Shown one piece after another: positions 44,651 to 54,242 of a stretch of 64,000 bases of DNA (position 1 is its first letter; every line of letters begins with the position of its first letter). The stretch comes from Streptomyces sp. CB02056 (lineage in GTDB: Bacteria > Actinomycetota > Actinomycetes > Streptomycetales > Streptomycetaceae). The notes beneath the pieces were generated by a model that was not told the origin of the DNA, did not search any database, and saw only the letters and a list, made by a program, of their open reading frames with translations. The stretch spans positions 62,001 through 126,000 of the forward strand of contig NZ_LIPD01000019.1 of assembly GCF_001905545.1 (NCBI RefSeq), in the 5' to 3' direction. Both the position numbers and the translations under genes were made by a program.

Positions 44651-45331
44651 ATGGGCACGACGCGGCGTTCGCTGCTGGGCGCGGCGCTGGGCGCCCCGCT
44701 ACTGGGGTGGCTCACCGGGACGGCGGCCGGTGCCGTTGACGGCGGCACCGACCGCACCGGGAGTCTGGGCACGCTCTCCGACGGCTGGGTGGAGGTGCGC
44801 TGGACCCCGGAGGCACAGGCCCAGCTGGACCGCTTCCACGCGATGGTGGACGTCGTCGCCCCGGCGCGCATGGTGCTGGACCAACGGGGCCCGGCGGTCC
44901 ACCTGCCGATCCGCTCCGCCGTGGGCGACCCGTCCCTCGCCAACCCGCCGAAGGCGCACGGCGACGGGGCCCTGGACGGCGGGGTCTCCGTCCGCACCTC
45001 CAAGGGCGACTACCGGGTGGTCAACCTGTCCGGCGCGATCAAGGACGGCCTGGGCTCGGGCCGGTGCGAGGTGAGCGGGGCGGAGATGGGGCACCGCTCG
45101 GCCTTCCGCTGCGGCCTCACCGAGGGCAAGCTGACGGCCGATCCGGTGCCGGCCGGGAAGCCGATGAAGGTCCGGCTCAGCGGGGTGCCGCTGCGCCCCA
45201 CCCAGGAGGCGGTGGACGCGTACACCGCCAACTTCGGCGCGCACCCGGTCACCGTGGACACGGTGCTCGCCTACGTCACGGCCCAGGGGACGTACACCCC
45301 TCCTCCGGCCGCCCAGGAGCAGAAGGCGTAG
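44651..45331 (+). CDS. Exported protein of unknown function (Tat-type signal)
   Basis: The 226-residue protein starts MGTTRRSLLGAALGAPLLGW, a twin-arginine signal ending near AAGA. The mature part has one pair of Cys (SGRCEVSG, FRCGLTEG) that may form a disulphide, and a GDYRVVNLSGAIKDGLGSG strand region. I know no family for it; it has some resemblance to secreted actinomycete proteins of unknown role. GGAAGG precedes the start. The 3' end overlaps the convergent prenyltransferase fusion by 56 bases. Confidence 0.75.
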   Translation: MGTTRRSLLGAALGAPLLGWLTGTAAGAVDGGTDRTGSLGTLSDGWVEVRWTPEAQAQLDRFHAMVDVVAPARMVLDQRGPAVHLPIRSAVGDPSLANPPKAHGDGALDGGVSVRTSKGDYRVVNLSGAIKDGLGSGRCEVSGAEMGHRSAFRCGLTEGKLTADPVPAGKPMKVRLSGVPLRPTQEAVDAYTANFGAHPVTVDTVLAYVTAQGTYTPPPAAQEQKA

Positions 45332-47033
45332 CGGGCCGGTCTCGGCGGGGTGTCCGGGACTGGGCGGGCACGCCGCCGCCGAAGCGCCGCTCGCGCACCG
45401 CGTACGCCCGGACCGCCCCGCGCAGCCGGGCCAGGTCGTAGTCCGGCCACGGCGTGGGGTCGAACAGCAGCTCGGCGTAGGCGAGCTGCCAGGGCAGGAA
45501 GTTGCTGATCCGCTGCTCCCCGGAGGTGCGGATCAGCAGGTCCACGTCCGGGAGGTCCGGGGCGTACAGGTGCCGGGCGAGGTCGGCCGGGCCGATCGCC
45601 TCCGGGCTGATCCGGCCCGCCACCGCCTCGGCGGCCAGGCTCCGTGCCGCGGCGGCCAGTTCCTCCCGTCCGCCGTAGTCCACGCAGACCGTCAGGGTCA
45701 GCGTGCCGTTGTTCGACGTCAGGCTCTCCACCAGCGCGATGGAGGAGGCGAGCGACTCGTCCACCCGGTCCCGCCGGCCGCACCAGCGGATCCGTACGCC
45801 GAGCGCGTGCAGGCCCTCCGCGCTGCGGGTGAGGCCGTCGGCCAGCGAGTCGAACAGCGCGGTCAGTTCCTCGGGCGGGCGGTCCCAGTTCTCGGTGGAG
45901 AAGGCGTACAGGCTCAGGTGGCGGATGCCCAGCCGCAGCGCCGCGTTGACCAGGCGCAGCGCGGCCCGCTGCCCGGCCCGGTGGCCGTGCTGCGCGGGCA
46001 GCCGACGGGCCTCGGCCCAGCGGCGGTTGCCGTCCATGATCACGGCGACGTGGGCGGGCGCGCCCTCGGGAGGCGCGGGCCGGGCGCGGCGGTGGGGCGT
46101 GGTGCCGTCGGAGCTCAGCGGGGTGAGGCCCTCGGTCAGGACGCGTGAGCGCAGCAGGGTCACTTCGTCGTACTGGAGCTGGGCGCCGAGAAGCAGGGTG
46201 TGCAGGAACGGGCGGCAGCCGGGGGCGGCGAGCCAGGTGGCGGGCAGGGCCTGCTCCAGCAGGCGGTGCAGGTGCCTCTGCTGGCTCTCGACCAGCTCGT
46301 CCAGGGCGGCGCGGCGGTCGGGTCGGCGGTCGGGTCGGCGGTCGTCCTGACTCGTGTCCCGGCCGAAGTCGGCGACGGTCAGGCCGAGTCGGCGCAGGTC
46401 GTCCTGCGGCAGGTAGCAGCGGCCGGCCGCGAGGTCGAGCGGGAGGTCCTCCAGGATGTCCGCCAGCTGGCAGGCCTCCCCCAGCGCGGACAGCGCGCCC
46501 GCCGCCCGCGGGCCCCGCGCGCCCAGCAGCGGGGCCCACAGCTCGGTGACCGTCCCCGCGACGCCCCGCAGGTGGCGGCGCTGGTCCGCGTGGGTCTCGA
46601 AGGCGGGCGGGCGGGCGCCGTCGGCCCGGGTGGCGTCCAGGAACTCCTCGACCAGCGCCCGGTCCAGCTCCCAGCGCCGCACGGTGTCGACGAAGGCCCG
46701 GCGCAGCGGGTGGTCGCTGCGGCCGGCCACGAGGTCGGCCAGGGTGTCGGCCCGCCAGCGGGCGAACCGGCGCTCGCGCTCGGCGGGGTCGGCGGCGCCC
46801 TGGGTGTCCTCGTCACCGTAGGAGTCGGAGTCGGCAGCGGCGTCGTCGGCGATCCGGTCGGACCGGGAGGCGAAGCCGTTGACGGCGTGGAAGTACGGCC
46901 GCACCTCGGGCGGCAGCGTGTCGCTGATCGCCCGCAGCGGGGCCTGGTGGGCGGCCACCTCCCGCTCGCAGAGCCGGTACGACTCCGCCAGCTCCGGCGG
47001 ACCGCCCACCGCTGCCGCCCCGTTCGCCGCCAT
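45276..47033 (-). CDS. Fusion of squalene/phytoene-synthase-like domain and cis-prenyltransferase (UppS-like)
   Basis: The 585-residue protein has two full enzyme domains. Residues 1-300 form a trans-prenyl head-to-head synthase fold: Asp-rich motif 1 at 59-68 (SDRIADDAAAD) and motif 2 at 192-205 (LADILEDLPLDLAAGRCYLP). Residues 325-560 form a cis-prenyltransferase: IMDGNRRWA with catalytic Asp334, HGHRAG, YAFSTENW and DLLIRTSGEQRISNF with the basic IPP-binding residues. Both sets are intact. It could make a cis-polyprenyl diphosphate and then condense or cyclise it in one chain. The ATG at 47033 follows a weak GGGGAACGGG. Confidence 0.88.
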   Translation of the reverse strand: MAANGAAAVGGPPELAESYRLCEREVAAHQAPLRAISDTLPPEVRPYFHAVNGFASRSDRIADDAAADSDSYGDEDTQGAADPAERERRFARWRADTLADLVAGRSDHPLRRAFVDTVRRWELDRALVEEFLDATRADGARPPAFETHADQRRHLRGVAGTVTELWAPLLGARGPRAAGALSALGEACQLADILEDLPLDLAAGRCYLPQDDLRRLGLTVADFGRDTSQDDRRPDRRPDRRAALDELVESQQRHLHRLLEQALPATWLAAPGCRPFLHTLLLGAQLQYDEVTLLRSRVLTEGLTPLSSDGTTPHRRARPAPPEGAPAHVAVIMDGNRRWAEARRLPAQHGHRAGQRAALRLVNAALRLGIRHLSLYAFSTENWDRPPEELTALFDSLADGLTRSAEGLHALGVRIRWCGRRDRVDESLASSIALVESLTSNNGTLTLTVCVDYGGREELAAAARSLAAEAVAGRISPEAIGPADLARHLYAPDLPDVDLLIRTSGEQRISNFLPWQLAYAELLFDPTPWPDYDLARLRGAVRAYAVRERRFGGGVPAQSRTPRRDRPATPSAPGRPEEGCTSPGP

Positions 47034-47974: not shown

Positions 47975-49024
47975 GTGGCCGCACCGGTTGCGCAACGGCT
48001 GATCGTCATCGTGCTGTTCGAGGGCGTCGACCTGCTCGACGTGACCGGCCCGCCCGAGGTGTTCTCCCTGGTCCGCCGGGAGACCGACGACGCGACCGGC
48101 TACCGGGTCGTCCTCGCCGCCGAGACGGCGGCGCCGGTCACCACCTCGGCGGGCGTGCGCATCCTGCCCGACCTCACCTTCGACGAGGCCGCCCGGAGCC
48201 GGATCGACACCCTGCTGGTGCCCGGCTCGGTCGAGGTGGACGAGCGCCGCCGGGTCCGCGCGCTCACCGACCCGGCGGTGGTCGACCGGGTCCGCTCCCT
48301 GGCCGCCCGCTCGCGCCGGGTGGCGAGCGTCTGCGTCGGCGCGCACCTGCTCGCCGCCGCCGGGCTGCTGGACGGGCGGCGCGCCACCACCCACTGGTCC
48401 ACGGCCGGCCAACTCGCCGAGGAGCACCCGGAGATCGAGGTCGACCCGGACCCGATCTTCATCCGCGAGGGCGAGGTCTGGACGGGCGCGGGCATCAGCG
48501 CCTGCCTGGACCTGTCGCTCGCCCTGGTCGCCGAGGACTTCGGCGAGGAGCTGGCCCTGCGGGTCGCCCGCCAGCTCGTCATGTACCTCAAACGCCCCAG
48601 CGGCCAGAGCCAGTTCAGCGTCCCACTGGAACCCGTGTCGACCACCCGGCGGATCGAGGAACTGCGCCACCACATCCTGCGCAACCTCTCCGGACGGCTC
48701 ACCGTCCCGGACCTCGCGGCCCACGCCCACGTCAGCGAACGGCAGTTGACCCGGATCTTCAAGACGGAGCTGGGCACCACCCCGAGCGCCTACGTCGAGT
48801 CGGCCCGGGTCGAACTGGCCCGCCACCGGCTGGAGTCCACCGACGCGACGCTCGAACGCATCGCCACCGCCTGCGGGTTCGGCACCGTCGACACCCTGGT
48901 GCGCGCCTTCCGCCGCCGCCTCGGGACGACGCCGACCGACTACCGGCAGCGCTTCCGGACGGCTGCCGCACCCACCGCGATCCCCACCGCTGCCAGGGCG
49001 ACCGTCACGGCAGCCGGACGGTGA
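47975..49024 (+). CDS. GlxA-type AraC family regulator with DJ-1/PfpI domain
   Basis: The 349-residue protein has an N-terminal DJ-1/PfpI-like domain (VIVLFEGVDLLDVTGPPEVF, VASVCVGAHLLAAAGLLDGRRATTHW) and a C-terminal AraC helix-turn-helix (VPDLAAHAHVSERQLTRIFK, ACGFGTVDTLVRAFRRRLG). It belongs to the FtrA/GlxA group that often regulates divergent hydrolase genes and is here divergent from an isochorismatase. The GTG start is set by GAGGGGGC. Repeated TGTCGGC and ATGTCGCC words lie between the two genes (about 47900-47915), possible half-sites. The 3' end overlaps the kinase gene by 20 bases. Confidence 0.92.
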   Translation: MAAPVAQRLIVIVLFEGVDLLDVTGPPEVFSLVRRETDDATGYRVVLAAETAAPVTTSAGVRILPDLTFDEAARSRIDTLLVPGSVEVDERRRVRALTDPAVVDRVRSLAARSRRVASVCVGAHLLAAAGLLDGRRATTHWSTAGQLAEEHPEIEVDPDPIFIREGEVWTGAGISACLDLSLALVAEDFGEELALRVARQLVMYLKRPSGQSQFSVPLEPVSTTRRIEELRHHILRNLSGRLTVPDLAAHAHVSERQLTRIFKTELGTTPSAYVESARVELARHRLESTDATLERIATACGFGTVDTLVRAFRRRLGTTPTDYRQRFRTAAAPTAIPTAARATVTAAGR

Positions 49025-50540
49025 ACTCCGTACGGCCGGGCCGGCTCGCCACCGTCACCGTGCCGCCGTGCGCCCCGACCACGGCCCGGACGATCGCCAG
49101 GCCGAGCCCGGTCGAGCCGGTGGCCCGGGAGCGGGCCCGGTCGCCCCGGACGAAGCGCTCGAAGACCCGCTCGGCCAGCTCCGGCGCGATCCCCGGGCCG
49201 TCGTCCGTGACGCTCAACTCGACCTGGCCGTCCGCCCGTTCGAGCCGCAGCTCGACCTCGGTGCCGGGCGGGGTGTGGCTCCGGGCGTTGGCCAGCAGGT
49301 TGGCCACCACCTGGCTCAGCCGGTGCCCGTCCCCGCGCACCAGCACCGGTTCCTCGGGCAGGACGAGCCGCCAGCGGTGCTCCGGTCCGGCGGCACGGGC
49401 GTCGGCCACCGCGTCGAGGGCGGTCCGGGTCAGGTCCACCTCCTCCTCGGCCAGCGGGCGGCCGGCGTCCAGCCGGGCGAGCAGCAGCAGGTCCTCGACG
49501 ATCGCCCCCATCCGCAGCGCCTCGGCGTCGATCCGCTCCAGCGAGTGCCGCACCTCGGGCGGCACCGGCCCGGGGTGGCGCAGCGCCAGCTCGGCGTGGC
49601 CGCGGACCGCCGCGACCGGGGTGCGCAACTCGTGGCTGGCGTCGGCGGCGAAGCCGCGCAGCCGCTCCTCCACCGCGTGGCGGCGGGCGAGTGCGCCGCC
49701 GACGTGCCCGAGCATCCGGTTGAGCGCGGCGCCGACCCGGCCGACCTCGGTGCGCGGGTCGTCGTCGGGCACGCGCTCGGCGAGCATCACCTCACCGCTG
49801 GCGAGCGGCAGCGCGCTGACCCGCTCGGCCATGCCCACCACCCGCCGCAGCGGGCGCAGCGAGACGCCGACCCAGGCGGCCCCGGCAGCACCGGCCGCGG
49901 CGACGGAGATCGCGAACACGGTGAGCTCCAGGGTCGCCAGCCGCTCGACGGTGTCCTCGGCCGGGCGCAGCGGCAGACCGCTGACCAGCACGTCGCCGTC
50001 CCGCCCGGTGACCGCGCGGACCCGGTAGCGCCCCAGGGCCCGGCCGAGGTCGAGGGTGCGGGCCGGGCCGTCGACGGACAGGGCGGCCAGCGCGTGCTGC
50101 TGCTCGGGGGTGAAGGCGACCCGGTCGTCCTCGTCGCCGGGGCTGTCCACGTCGTCGGCGTCCCCGTCGACCACGCCCGCGGCGGTGACCCGGCCGCCGA
50201 GCAGCCGTACGCCGAGGGTGCCGGGGGTCTGGGCCCGGGTGTCGGGGCCGGCGCCCTGGGCGGTGTGCTCCAGGCTCGCGGCGTAGCGTCCGCCGGACTC
50301 GGTGAGCTGCTGGTCCAGCCGGTCGACCAGGAAGTGGCGCAGCGCGGCGGTGGTGGCGAGGCCGACGGCGGCGCAGGTGACGACCAGCAGCACCAGCAGT
50401 CCGGCGATCAGCCGGGCCCGCAGGGTGCGGGGCACCAGCCGGGCGACGCGGGACCCCAGGCGCTTCGCGTCGCGGGACCCCAGGCGCTTCGGGCCGCGGG
50501 ACTTTTGGCGCTTCGCGTCGCGGGCCTGCGCGCCGCTCAC
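49005..50540 (-). CDS. OmpR-type sensor histidine kinase
   Basis: The 511-residue kinase has an N-terminal 24-base-repeat segment (three RDAKRQKS-like units). A transmembrane helix (LIAGLLVLLVVTCAAVGLA), an extracellular domain and a second helix follow, then HAMP, the HisKA domain (FAADASHELRTPVAAVRG) and a HATPase domain (NLLANARSHT, DDGPGI, STGLGLAIV). Its GTG start overlaps the regulator stop. It pairs with the downstream-facing regulator 50537-51253 and is likely to sense an envelope signal. The flavin operon is divergent. Confidence 0.92.
   Translation of the reverse strand: MSGAQARDAKRQKSRGPKRLGSRDAKRLGSRVARLVPRTLRARLIAGLLVLLVVTCAAVGLATTAALRHFLVDRLDQQLTESGGRYAASLEHTAQGAGPDTRAQTPGTLGVRLLGGRVTAAGVVDGDADDVDSPGDEDDRVAFTPEQQHALAALSVDGPARTLDLGRALGRYRVRAVTGRDGDVLVSGLPLRPAEDTVERLATLELTVFAISVAAAGAAGAAWVGVSLRPLRRVVGMAERVSALPLASGEVMLAERVPDDDPRTEVGRVGAALNRMLGHVGGALARRHAVEERLRGFAADASHELRTPVAAVRGHAELALRHPGPVPPEVRHSLERIDAEALRMGAIVEDLLLLARLDAGRPLAEEEVDLTRTALDAVADARAAGPEHRWRLVLPEEPVLVRGDGHRLSQVVANLLANARSHTPPGTEVELRLERADGQVELSVTDDGPGIAPELAERVFERFVRGDRARSRATGSTGLGLAIVRAVVGAHGGTVTVASRPGRTEFTVRLP
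50449..50520 (-). repeat. Three tandem 24-base repeats in the kinase N-terminus
   Basis: Units at 50449-50472, 50473-50496 and 50497-50520 are near-identical and in frame. They encode RDAKRQKS, RGPKRLGS and RDAKRLGS next to the first membrane helix. Copy number may vary between strains. Confidence 0.9.
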
Positions 50541-51253
50541 GTCGCGGCCTTGATCAGGTAACCCGCGCCGCGCACCGTGTGGATCATCGGACTGCGCCCG
50601 GCGTCCACCTTCTTGCGCAGGTAGCTGATGTACAGCTCCACGATGTGCGCCTGCCCGCCGAAGTCGTACGACCAGACGGCGTCCAGGATCTGCGCCTTGC
50701 TGAGCACCTGCCGGGGGTGGCGCATCAGGTGGGCGAGCAGCGCGTACTCGGTGGGGCTGAGCTCGACCGCCTCCCCGCCCCGGGTGACCTCGCGGGCCCG
50801 GTCGTCCAGCACCAGGTCGCCGAGCACCAGGGCGTGCGGGGGCGGCTGCCCGGGCGCGGCGGGCGGGGCGGCCCGGCGCAGCAGGCCGCGCAGCCGGACC
50901 ACCACCTCGGCCAGACTGAACGGCTTGGTCACGTAGTCGTCGCCGCCGGCCGCGATGCCGGCGATCCGCTCCTCGACGGCGTCCCGGGCGGTGAGGAAGA
51001 GCACCCGCGCCTCGGGCTGCCCGGCGTGGATGCGGCGCAGCACCTCCAGGCCGTCGAGGTCGGGCAGCATCACGTCCAGCACCACGGCGTGCGGCCGCCA
51101 TTCCGCGGCGGCCTCGACGGCGGCCAGGCCGGTGGTCGCGCCGCGCGCCTGCCAGCCCTCGTAGCGGACGGCCCCGCACACCACCTCGACCAGGTCCGGT
51201 TCGTCGTCGACGACCAGGACCCGCCAGTCCGGGCGGCCGGCGGTCTCGTCCAT
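50537..51253 (-). CDS. OmpR/PhoP-family response regulator
   Basis: The 238-residue protein has a receiver (VLVVDDEPDLVEVV, phospho-acceptor Asp60 in VVLDVMLPDLDG, TKPFSLAEV) and a winged-helix DNA-binding domain (VELSPTEYALLAHLM, VWSYDFGGQAHIVELYISYLRKK). Its stop overlaps the kinase start (GTGA). The start was set at 51253, with GAGGGAG upstream; an ATG at 51289 is possible. Direct repeats CTCAGAGC at 51402 and 51413 in the divergent promoter are likely binding sites. Confidence 0.94.
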   Translation of the reverse strand: MDETAGRPDWRVLVVDDEPDLVEVVCGAVRYEGWQARGATTGLAAVEAAAEWRPHAVVLDVMLPDLDGLEVLRRIHAGQPEARVLFLTARDAVEERIAGIAAGGDDYVTKPFSLAEVVVRLRGLLRRAAPPAAPGQPPPHALVLGDLVLDDRAREVTRGGEAVELSPTEYALLAHLMRHPRQVLSKAQILDAVWSYDFGGQAHIVELYISYLRKKVDAGRSPMIHTVRGAGYLIKAAT

Positions 51254-51480: not shown

Positions 51481-52860
51481 ATGAGCACTGCCGCCGCACC
51501 GACGTCGCGGCCCGGGCCCCGGCCGGCACCCGACCGCCCGAGGCACCGGGCGGCGCCACGACCACCGTTCGCCCTCGACCCGCGCGCGGCGCTCGGCCTG
51601 GTCGCCGTGGGCGCGCTCGGCGTGCTCGCGCTGTGGTGGTCGGGCACCCCGGCGGTGGTCGGCGCGGCCGACTGGCTGACCGGCGCCGGCCGGATCACCG
51701 GGCTGCTGGCCGGCTACGCCGCGCCGGTGCTGCTCCTGCTGATGGCCCGGCTGCCGCCGGTGGAGCGCGGGGTCGGGGCGGACCGGCTGGCGCGCTGGCA
51801 CGCCTTCGGCGGGCGGTGGATGGTGGCCCTGGTCTCGGTGCACGTGCTGACGGTCGTCTGGGGCTACGCGCTGACCGACGGGCGCGGGGTGGTCGGCGAG
51901 GGCGTGGAGATCGTCTTCCACTACCCCGAGATGGTCAAGGCCGCCCTGGGCACCCTGCTGCTGCTCGGCACCGGCGCCGTCTCCGCCCGGATCGCGCGAC
52001 GCCGCCTCCCGTACGAGACCTGGTACTACCTGCACCTGGCGACCTACCTCGCGGTGGCGCTGGCCTTCTCCCACCAGCTCGCCACCGGCGCCGACCTGGG
52101 CGGCGGCCCCGGCCGGGCCGCCTGGTACGCGCTCTACTTCGGGACGGCGGCGCTGCTCGGCTGGTTCCGGCTGCTGCGGCCGTGGCTGCTCGACCGGCGG
52201 CACGGCCTGACCGTCGCCGAGGTGCGGCCGGAGGGCCCCGGCGTGGTGTCGCTCTTCCTGACCGGGCGGCGGCTGGACGGACTCCGCGCCGAGCCGGGCC
52301 AGTTCTTCCGGCTCCAGTTCCAAGCCCCCGGGCTGCGCTGGGCCGCCAACCCGTACTCGCTGTCCGCGCCGCCCCACCCGAGCTTCCTGCGCTTCACGGT
52401 CAAGGACCTCGGCGGGCACAGCGCCGCCGTGGCCGCCCTGCGCCCGGGGACCAGGGTGCGCGCCGAGGGCCCGTACGGGGCGTTCACCGGGCGGCGGCTG
52501 CGGCAGCGCCGGGTGCTGCTGCTCGGCGCTGGGGTGGGGATCACCCCGCTGCGCGCCCTGTTCGAGACGCTGCCGGGCGAGCTGACCCTGGTCCAGCGGG
52601 CCCGGCGGCCGCAGGACGTGCTGTTCCGGGCGGAACTGGCCGATGTCGCCCGGCGGCGCGGTGCGGCGGTGCACGAGCTGCTCGGCTCGCGCGAGCAGGT
52701 CGGCGACCTCGGCGCCGCGCTGGCCCGGCTGGTCCCGGACCTCGCCGACCACGAGGTCTACCTGTGCGGCCCGGAGGCGATGGCCGAGGAGGCCGTGCGC
52801 GCACTGCGGGCCGCGGGGGTGCGGCGGGGGCGCATCCACCACGAGAGCTTTTCGTTCTGA
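51481..52860 (+). CDS. Ferric-reductase-like transmembrane/ferredoxin reductase fusion protein
   Basis: The 459-residue protein has about six transmembrane helices (40-225) with His pairs in helices (SVHVLTVVWG, YYLHLATYL) that could bind haem, as in ferric reductase domains. A cytoplasmic FAD-binding (GQFFRLQF, NPYSLSAPP) and NAD(P)-binding domain (LLLGAGVGITPLRALFE, YLCGPEAMAEEAV) follow. It should take electrons from NAD(P)H and move them across the membrane. It is first in an operon with FMN-binding and ApbE proteins. The ATG follows GAGGAGG. Confidence 0.9.
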   Translation: MSTAAAPTSRPGPRPAPDRPRHRAAPRPPFALDPRAALGLVAVGALGVLALWWSGTPAVVGAADWLTGAGRITGLLAGYAAPVLLLLMARLPPVERGVGADRLARWHAFGGRWMVALVSVHVLTVVWGYALTDGRGVVGEGVEIVFHYPEMVKAALGTLLLLGTGAVSARIARRRLPYETWYYLHLATYLAVALAFSHQLATGADLGGGPGRAAWYALYFGTAALLGWFRLLRPWLLDRRHGLTVAEVRPEGPGVVSLFLTGRRLDGLRAEPGQFFRLQFQAPGLRWAANPYSLSAPPHPSFLRFTVKDLGGHSAAVAALRPGTRVRAEGPYGAFTGRRLRQRRVLLLGAGVGITPLRALFETLPGELTLVQRARRPQDVLFRAELADVARRRGAAVHELLGSREQVGDLGAALARLVPDLADHEVYLCGPEAMAEEAVRALRAAGVRRGRIHHESFSF

Positions 52861-52961
52861 GCCCGTCCGCTCGCGGAGTCCGTTCGCCCGCCGAGTCCTT
52901 CCGCCCGCTGAGCCCGTTCGTTCGCCGAGCCCGTCCGCCCGCTGAGCCCGTTCGGCTCGCC
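52859..52961. repeat. Six degenerate 17-base tandem repeats
   Basis: Units such as GAGCCCGTCCGCTCGCG and GAGTCCGTTCGCCCGCC follow head to tail from the reductase stop codon to just before the RBS of the FMN-binding gene. The last unit has 18 bases. This non-coding spacer may set the transcript's stability or structure. Confidence 0.85.
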
Positions 52962-52986
52962 AAGCACCTGAGGAGCGTTGATTTCC

Positions 52987-53457
52987 ATGCGCCGAGCCGT
53001 CGTCACCAGCGCCGCCACCGCGGCCGGGGTGGTGCTGCTGCTGTCCCTCAAGCCGCACGAGGCGGCCGGGCCCGCCCCGGTGATCGGCTCGGGGGCGGGT
53101 ACCGGTTCCGGTTCCGATGTCTCGCAGCCGTCGGAGGCCCCAGCACCCTCCTCTTCCGCCTCCGCCGCGGGCACGGGCGCCACCCGGAAGGTCAACGGCG
53201 ACACCGTCAACACCCGGTACGGGCCGGTCCAGGTGCAGGTCACCCTGGCCGGCAGCCGGATCACCGCCGTCGACGTGGTCAAGTACCCGAACTCCGAGCG
53301 CCGCGACCGCGAGATCAACAGCTCCGCGCTGCCCGTGCTCAACCAGGAGGCGATATCCGCGCAGAGCGCCGCCATCGACGTGGTCAGCGGCGCGACGTAC
53401 ACCAGCGACGGCTACGTCCGCTCCCTGCAGAGCGCCCTCGACCGGGCCAAGGGCTGA
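52987..53457 (+). CDS. Secreted FMN-binding domain protein (covalent flavoprotein)
   Basis: The 156-residue protein has a signal or anchor helix at the N-terminus (VTSAATAAGVVLLLS) and a Ser/Ala-rich linker. An FMN-binding domain ends in DVVSGATYTSDGY, the covalent flavinylation motif (SGATxT, Thr137-Thr139) used in RnfG/NqrC-type proteins. It is expected to be flavinylated by the ApbE protein encoded next and to carry electrons outside the membrane. The ATG was chosen over an upstream TTG because GAGGAG lies at a better distance. Confidence 0.9.
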   Translation: MRRAVVTSAATAAGVVLLLSLKPHEAAGPAPVIGSGAGTGSGSDVSQPSEAPAPSSSASAAGTGATRKVNGDTVNTRYGPVQVQVTLAGSRITAVDVVKYPNSERRDREINSSALPVLNQEAISAQSAAIDVVSGATYTSDGYVRSLQSALDRAKG

Positions 53458-53465
53458 GGCGCCCC

Positions 53466-54242
53466 GTGCTGCGCCACGCCGAGCCCGTGATGGGCACCGT
53501 CTTCTCGATCGCCGTCCGCGACCCCGGCCCCGGCACCGCCGCCGCGCTGGAGCGGATCGCCGAACGGCTGCACCGGATCGACGCGGTGTTCTCCACCTAC
53601 CGGCCGGACAGCGACATCAGCCGCCTCGACCGGGGCGAACTCGCCCTGGACGACTGCGATCCGGAGGTCCGCGCCGTGCTGGCGGCCTGCCGCGACGTGG
53701 CCGCCGAGACGGACGGCCACTTCAGCGAGCGGCCGGGCGGGCGGCTGGACCCGAGCGGCTGGGTCAAGGGGTGGGCGGTCGAGCAGGCAGCCGGCCTGCT
53801 GCGCTCCTCCGGCGCCCGGCAGTACTGCGTCAGCGGCGGCGGGGACGTGCAGACCGCCGGAGGCCCGTGGCGGATCGGCATCGCCGACCCCCGGCAGCCG
53901 GGGCTGCTGGCCGCCGTCCTCGCCGGTGACGACCTCGCCGTGGCCACCTCCGGCACCGCCGAGCGCGGCGCGCACATCCTCGACCCGCACACCGGCCGCC
54001 CGGCCCACGGCCTGGCCTCGCTCACCCTGGTCGGCGCCCCGGGCACCGGCATCGCCCGCACCGACGCCTGGGCCACCGCCGCGTTCGCCATGGGCCCGGA
54101 CCGCGCCCTCGCCTGGGCCGCCCGCCGACCCGGCATCGAGGCCCTGGCCGTCCTGCCGGATGGCTCGAAGCGCTGGACGCCGGGCCTGCCCAGGCACCTC
54201 CCGGCGAGCGGTCCGGCGGACTGGCGAGCCGCCGTCGGCTGA
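53466..54242 (+). CDS. apbE: FAD:FMN transferase (ApbE)
   Basis: The 258-residue protein has the ApbE family layout: MGTVFSIAV at the start, DAVFSTYRPDSDISRLDRGE and DPSGWVKGWAVEQA. Further motifs are SGGGDVQTAG (glycine-rich FAD site), ATSGTAERGAHILDPHTGR and RTDAWATAAF with the metal ligand. It transfers FMN from FAD onto Thr or Ser of the partner protein. The FMN-binding substrate is encoded immediately upstream. It has no signal peptide, so FMN attachment would take place in the cytoplasm, or the protein is exported another way. The GTG start follows TGAGG. Confidence 0.93.
   Translation: MLRHAEPVMGTVFSIAVRDPGPGTAAALERIAERLHRIDAVFSTYRPDSDISRLDRGELALDDCDPEVRAVLAACRDVAAETDGHFSERPGGRLDPSGWVKGWAVEQAAGLLRSSGARQYCVSGGGDVQTAGGPWRIGIADPRQPGLLAAVLAGDDLAVATSGTAERGAHILDPHTGRPAHGLASLTLVGAPGTGIARTDAWATAAFAMGPDRALAWAARRPGIEALAVLPDGSKRWTPGLPRHLPASGPADWRAAVG

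Follow-up and report, generated by a model that had tools for sequence, protein, structure and literature searches.

This locus raises the question of whether a single bacterial protein, carrying both a squalene/phytoene-synthase-like (SQS-like) domain and a cis-prenyltransferase domain, is a genuine and conserved fusion, and what such a protein could make. The analysis started from a window of 64,000 nucleotides from Streptomyces sp. CB02056, whose genome consists of 9.54 Mb in 34 contigs.

The fusion gene and its predicted structure

The features of the locus are listed in Table 1. The frame of the fusion gene opens with an ATG at 47033 and its stop codon ends at 45276. The coordinates and the length of the protein were already correct in a sequence-only reading of the same DNA, from which the strand and the partner genes were absent.

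Table 1. Position of the fusion gene, its domains and motifs, and the neighbouring partner gene within the window.
Feature	Position	Strand	Basis
Partner gene, convergent to the fusion; encodes a 226-aa protein with a Tat export signal and a predicted HtaA fold	44651..45331	+	Conserved neighbour, fold
SQS-like / cis-prenyltransferase fusion gene, 585 aa	45276..47033	-	Translation, Pfam, AlphaFold2 model, orthologues
Squalene/phytoene-synthase-like domain, residues 35-277	46203..46931	-	PF00494, 112 bits; own clade in tree
Motif I, D59-R-I-A-D63; DxxxD kept, DDxxD not	46845..46859	-	SQS-type alignment
Motif II, D192-ILE-D196-LPL-D200; neither N nor R of NxxRD present	46434..46460	-	SQS-type alignment
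Linker, residues 299-319	46077..46139	-	pLDDT below 50, disordered; region poorly conserved
cis-Prenyltransferase (UppS-type) domain, residues 332-552	45378..46040	-	PF01255, 240 bits; TIGR00055

The presence of both domains in one protein, as claimed by that reading, is confirmed by the Pfam scores. The SQS_PSY family (PF00494) is matched by residues 35-277 at 112.4 bits, against a cut-off of 26 (E 4e-32), and the Prenyltransf family (PF01255) by residues 332-552 at 240 bits, against a cut-off of 27 (E 2e-71). Among NCBIfam models, TIGR00055 (uppS) reaches 228.9 bits, above its cut-off of 109.55; the protein falls below the cut-off of every narrower equivalog model.

The structure modelling suggested earlier was carried out by AlphaFold2, using an alignment of 14 orthologues. 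In the resulting model (mean pLDDT 74), an all-helical N-terminal domain and a mixed alpha/beta C-terminal domain are each folded, with about 20 disordered residues linking them. Foldseek pairs the C-terminal half with Rv2361c and the Thermobifida enzyme (about 50% identity); when the N-terminal half is compared by sequence with solved structures, HpnC, CqsB4 and LvqB4 come out best. A chance overlap or a frame artefact is ruled out, as both domains score far over their cut-offs and are conserved in the orthologues; no stop codon interrupts the frame in any intact orthologue.

Distribution of the fusion

The search for the domain pair in other genomes, also proposed by the earlier reading, was performed at increasing taxonomic depth, up to the class level. 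Fusions are found in 6 of 70 genomes of the host genus. A search of 395 genomes, assigned to Streptomycetaceae on the basis of their named relatives, identified 14 intact copies in 13 of them, and the two populations are clearly separated by score, since intact fusions reach at least 318 bits and all other matches at most 161. One genome (G166) contains two copies, one towards each end of its 5.95-Mb contig. The class-wide search added three more fusions, all in a second family (f19), which its size and range suggest to be Pseudonocardiaceae-like; a dedicated search of this family retrieved 4 fusions in 251 genomes. A diverged fusion is also present in Streptomyces pseudovenezuelae (L039). All together, about 19 distinct loci keep the fusion, and its conservation across two bacterial families argues that the two fused activities belong to one pathway. 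Incomplete copies were observed as well: a partial match in G210, and a truncated fusion (L170:9456-9944 in G295) of about the first 162 residues, lacking the partner gene described below, which represents a decayed cassette.

The host genome also contains an HpnC/HpnD pair, one further SQS-like gene and a second cis-prenyltransferase, and its housekeeping UppS is encoded on contig C1. Because the host has its own HpnC/HpnD, UppS and other family members, the fusion is an addition and not a replacement.

Other candidates were considered for the locus as a whole. The idea that the fusion sits within a large biosynthetic cluster is ruled out, the flanking genes being generic and shared only among close relatives. 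A hopanoid or carotenoid gene is likewise ruled out, as the HpnC/HpnD pair is located elsewhere and CrtB-type genes fall in another clade. Promoter and terminator scans gave no match, and the repeats found resemble the high-GC background. Elsewhere in the window, consecutive plus-strand genes (51607-54242) encode a membrane protein resembling ferric reductases, a small protein that looks secreted and the FMN transferase ApbE; a two-component system (49005-51253) adjoins them.

A convergent partner gene in Streptomycetaceae

In the window, the 3' end of the partner gene overlaps the fusion gene by 56 bases. The same convergent, adjacent arrangement is found in 14 of 14 intact Streptomycetaceae loci, where the two stop codons either overlap or sit a few tens of bases apart. 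The remaining neighbours of the fusion vary outside the closest relatives. Linkage is thus kept while the surroundings change, and fusion and partner constitute a two-gene cassette found at changing chromosomal sites.

The partner protein is about 215 residues long and begins with a sequence, M-S-(T/A)-T-R-R-x-x-L-(G/S), that resembles a signal for twin-arginine export. By profile search, full-length partners are found in 13 of the 395 genomes, the same 13 that contain the fusion. Two sets of 13 genomes would coincide by chance with a probability of about 1e-24 if genomes were independent, which they are not. The other genomes yield no more than fragments or weak matches, in G102, G004, G063 and G285; in G102, the partner fragment is present without a fusion.

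No Pfam family matches the partner protein. Its predicted model (mean pLDDT 60) was compared with known structures, and the CR domains, the heme-binding domains of Corynebacterium HtaA, were retrieved with a Foldseek E of 1e-6 and a Z of 13.0 over 156 residues (rmsd 3.0); the next, unrelated fold group reaches a Z of 6.7. By fold comparison the partner is therefore predicted to adopt the CR-domain (HtaA) fold, although a shared fold shows no function. In the orthologue alignment there is no invariant His, and the sole invariant Tyr is Y215, near the C-terminus, so that heme binding in the known manner is unsupported.

Exporter genes in the other lineage

A different type of neighbour is found in the second family, where an ABC ATPase gene directly follows the fusion in 3 of 4 loci (L211, L213 and L224). 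In S. pseudovenezuelae, ABC ATPase and permease genes precede it. Identity to the L211 copy is 63-71% among these fusion-linked ATPases, compared with at most 36% for unrelated ATPases in the loci, and a matching permease (40-57%) is found in L211, L224 and L039. Judged by these identities, the linked genes encode an orthologous ABC-2-type exporter. Its permease has no match in 12 of the 13 Streptomycetaceae genomes containing the fusion, the exception being G318.

Neither kind of partner is located next to the fusion in L212 (G647), and in L213 (8666-9301, G750) an internal deletion joins the ABC ATPase to the permease tail, so that the exporter looks broken beside an intact fusion. Export is therefore not strictly coupled to the fusion. 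Nevertheless, the fusion nearly always adjoins a gene for either an exported protein or an exporter. The recurrence of different export components around this chemistry is the main reason for thinking that the product of the fusion enzyme is probably exported.

Related arrangements were observed at other loci. In G318, the orthologous ABC exporter adjoins a 615-residue frame with Lipocalin_9 and trans-polyprenyl synthetase domains (L226:7762-11160). On plasmid p1 of Streptomyces sp. BHT-5-2 (L038:11992-15796), unfused, adjacent genes for a cis-prenyltransferase and an SQS-like protein are followed by an MMPL transporter gene, all on one strand; a similar unfused SQS-like gene lies beside an MMPL gene in L191.

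The cis-prenyltransferase domain

The catalytic motifs MDGNxRW, H351, FSTENW, RTSGEQR and E521 are invariant, or nearly so, in the 14 orthologues, in agreement with the earlier claim that the UppS motifs are intact. The domain very probably makes a Z-prenyl diphosphate, to judge from these residues. In the tree, it forms a clade separate from the housekeeping UppS, and the cut-off of the actinobacterial isoprenyl-transferase equivalog is not reached (best score 265.6 bits against 372). An FLPW signature characterizes all fusion domains (19 of 19), versus 7 of 72 unfused ones (6 with FLPW and 1 with FMPW).

A single origin of all fusions, including that of S. pseudovenezuelae, is not rejected (p-AU 0.10). 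A separate origin of the latter is accordingly unproven, and one origin is favoured because both the exporter and the FLPW signature are shared.

The SQS-like domain

None of the four aspartates in the metal-binding DxxxD pairs (D59/D63 and D196/D200) varies among the 14 Streptomycetaceae fusions or in a wider 12-row alignment including the other fusions. Motif I reads D-(R, H, D, A or G)-x-A-D across fusions. In motif II, the first place, occupied by N in NxxRD, is taken by D (E in L211), and the R is replaced by E, Q, T, H or S. The sequence-only reading had described both Asp-rich motifs as intact: this holds for the DxxxD pairs, but the full DDxxD (here DRIAD) and NxxRD (here DILEDLPLD) are not preserved. 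With these aspartates retained, Mg2+-mediated binding of a prenyl diphosphate by the domain is probable. A very diverged SQS-like gene, isolated in the host genome (L004, G000:C31:188977-189693), also has a motif II starting with D, and its motif I is DTLLD.

The same alignment places NxxRD in HpnD, CrtB and CrtM; CqsB4 and LvqB4 carry D, and in HpnC the place is taken by N or E and the R is missing. The presqualene-type motifs of HpnD, CrtM and CrtB (DDxxD and NxxRDxxED) were not found in the fusions, all of which lack the N and the R. By inference from these residues, motif II would be nearer to that of the carbazole prenyltransferases CqsB4 and LvqB4 than to that of presqualene-forming enzymes. 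In the tree, the fusion domains form a clade of their own with full support (100/100) and a long stem, outside the HpnC, HpnD, CrtB and CrtM clades; there is no supported sister and the deeper placement is weak.

These data bear on the earlier designation of the N-terminal half as a head-to-head synthase. Such an enzyme would couple two Z-prenyl diphosphates, via a cyclopropyl diphosphate, into a cis-squalene-like hydrocarbon or alcohol. Membership of the SQS_PSY family, the DxxxD pairs kept in all intact fusions and a partial similarity to NCBIfam models are consistent with this possibility, but the scores of those models (87 bits for HpnD and 64 for HpnC) are far under their cut-offs (278.6 and 250.45, respectively). 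With the NxxRD signature missing, DDxxD reduced to DxxxD and the domain falling outside the clades of known enzymes, the label is unsupported; motif II argues against a standard head-to-head synthase, and we consider this activity unlikely. The dimerisation or cyclisation of a cis-prenyl chain envisaged by the earlier reading likewise finds no support in the data.

Equally unlikely, in our estimate, is that the domain is no longer a synthase at all. It could be a degenerate module with a regulatory or chain-length-setting role, or a prenyl-diphosphate phosphatase like Bacillus YisP, which is among its PDB relatives (E 3e-9); the output would then be a Z-polyprenyl diphosphate or polyprenol. 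Simple Nei-Gojobori counts, which are rough for high-GC genes, put dN/dS at 0.42-0.75 in the SQS-like domain, the top value being reached between near relatives; the cis-prenyltransferase domain lies at 0.13-0.41 and the partner at 0.20-0.53. Purifying selection acts on both domains, less strongly on the SQS-like one, and a relaxed or non-catalytic role is possible because of this faster change and the two missing motif residues. Yet the ratio is still below 1, the four metal-site aspartates are unchanged in every intact fusion, and the domain has been kept fused in two bacterial families.

Proposed function and remaining alternatives

The preferred reading, which we hold to be about evenly balanced between right and wrong, is that of a bifunctional isoprenoid synthase encoded in a small exchangeable cassette, which makes a Z-prenyl diphosphate, performs a second prenyl transfer and yields an exported isoprenoid. 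In the first step, the C-terminal domain would add IPP in cis to an allylic diphosphate, in the manner of UppS, as its intact residues suggest. The N-terminal domain could then ionise a prenyl diphosphate, possibly channelled from the other domain, by means of its two DxxxD metal sites, and transfer it onto another prenyl diphosphate or some other acceptor. The linked genes suggest that the isoprenoid would leave the cytoplasm: in Streptomycetaceae the Tat-exported HtaA-fold protein would take charge of it outside the cell, and in the other lineage the dedicated ABC-2-type exporter would pump it out.

A spare, protective UppS, such as a version of the cell-wall enzyme that inhibitors do not affect and that resides on a mobile cassette, would agree with the patchy distribution, the changing chromosomal sites and the truncated remnants, as well as with a cis-prenyltransferase domain standing apart from a housekeeping UppS that the genome also contains. 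It leaves unexplained why an SQS-like domain is fused to it and why an exported HtaA-fold partner or an exporter lies alongside, and is judged very improbable. The chance joining of two unrelated enzymes, each with a fixed known product, is the least credible possibility. In its favour, both families are common in the host genome and have separate members elsewhere; against it, the fusion is conserved at about 19 loci, with dedicated partners and a signature seldom shared by unfused domains.

If the bifunctional synthase reading is true, one protein both makes and spends a Z-prenyl chain, which would open a route to terpenoids or carrier lipids; ordinary searches label such proteins 'UppS' or 'phytoene synthase'. 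From the export genes linked to it, the product is to be expected either outside the cell or in the envelope. As the cassette consists of two genes only, it is directly expressible and testable. A broader formulation is put forward more tentatively, and we think it rather less likely to hold in full: a new family of single-chain enzymes would make a Z-prenyl diphosphate and join it to a second prenyl unit or acceptor, the cassette partners (HtaA-fold exported carrier or ABC-2 exporter) would deliver the product outside, and the occurrence of the same exporter with a Lipocalin_9-polyprenyl synthase fusion would indicate a wider class of isoprenoid enzymes with two domains and dedicated export.

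Comparison with known systems

Searches of the open literature yielded no description of the SQS-like/cis-prenyltransferase domain pair. Both domain families are already known; the fusion appears to be a rare, undescribed family, seen in two actinobacterial groups within the class searched.

The C-terminal half is closest to UppS, represented by M. tuberculosis Rv2361c and the dodecaprenyl diphosphate synthase of Thermobifida fusca, with which it shares the fold, all catalytic motifs and 49-51% identity. It differs by the added SQS-like domain, its separate clade and the MDGNRRW and FLPW signatures.

For the N-terminal half, Streptomyces CqsB4 and LvqB4 (PDB 7vwt and 7vws) share the SQS fold, the two Asp-rich motifs and the D at the first place of motif II, which reads QLLDFIWD in these proteins and QLADILED in the fusion. 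They belong to another clade and are separate proteins, and carbazole genes are absent near the fusion in the window. CqsB4 and NzsG have been described as SQS-like, with two Asp-rich motifs (PMC7466098), and cyclolavandulyl diphosphate synthase is counted among the head-to-middle prenyl synthases (PMC7839719). HpnC and HpnD share the PF00494 family, and of solved structures HpnC (PDB 4hd1) matches the SQS-like domain best; they fall in clades apart from the fusion, the motif II of HpnD is unlike that of the fusion, and the HpnC/HpnD genes of the host lie elsewhere.

The partner resembles Corynebacterium HtaA and HtaB in its predicted CR-domain fold. It differs from them in sequence (12% identity, with no Pfam HtaA match up to an E of 1), and the conserved Tyr/His heme ligands were not found in it.

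In the lavanduquocin pathway, an SQS-like prenyltransferase takes its donor from a cis-prenyltransferase homologue. This route offers a precedent for a chemistry split between the same two protein families.
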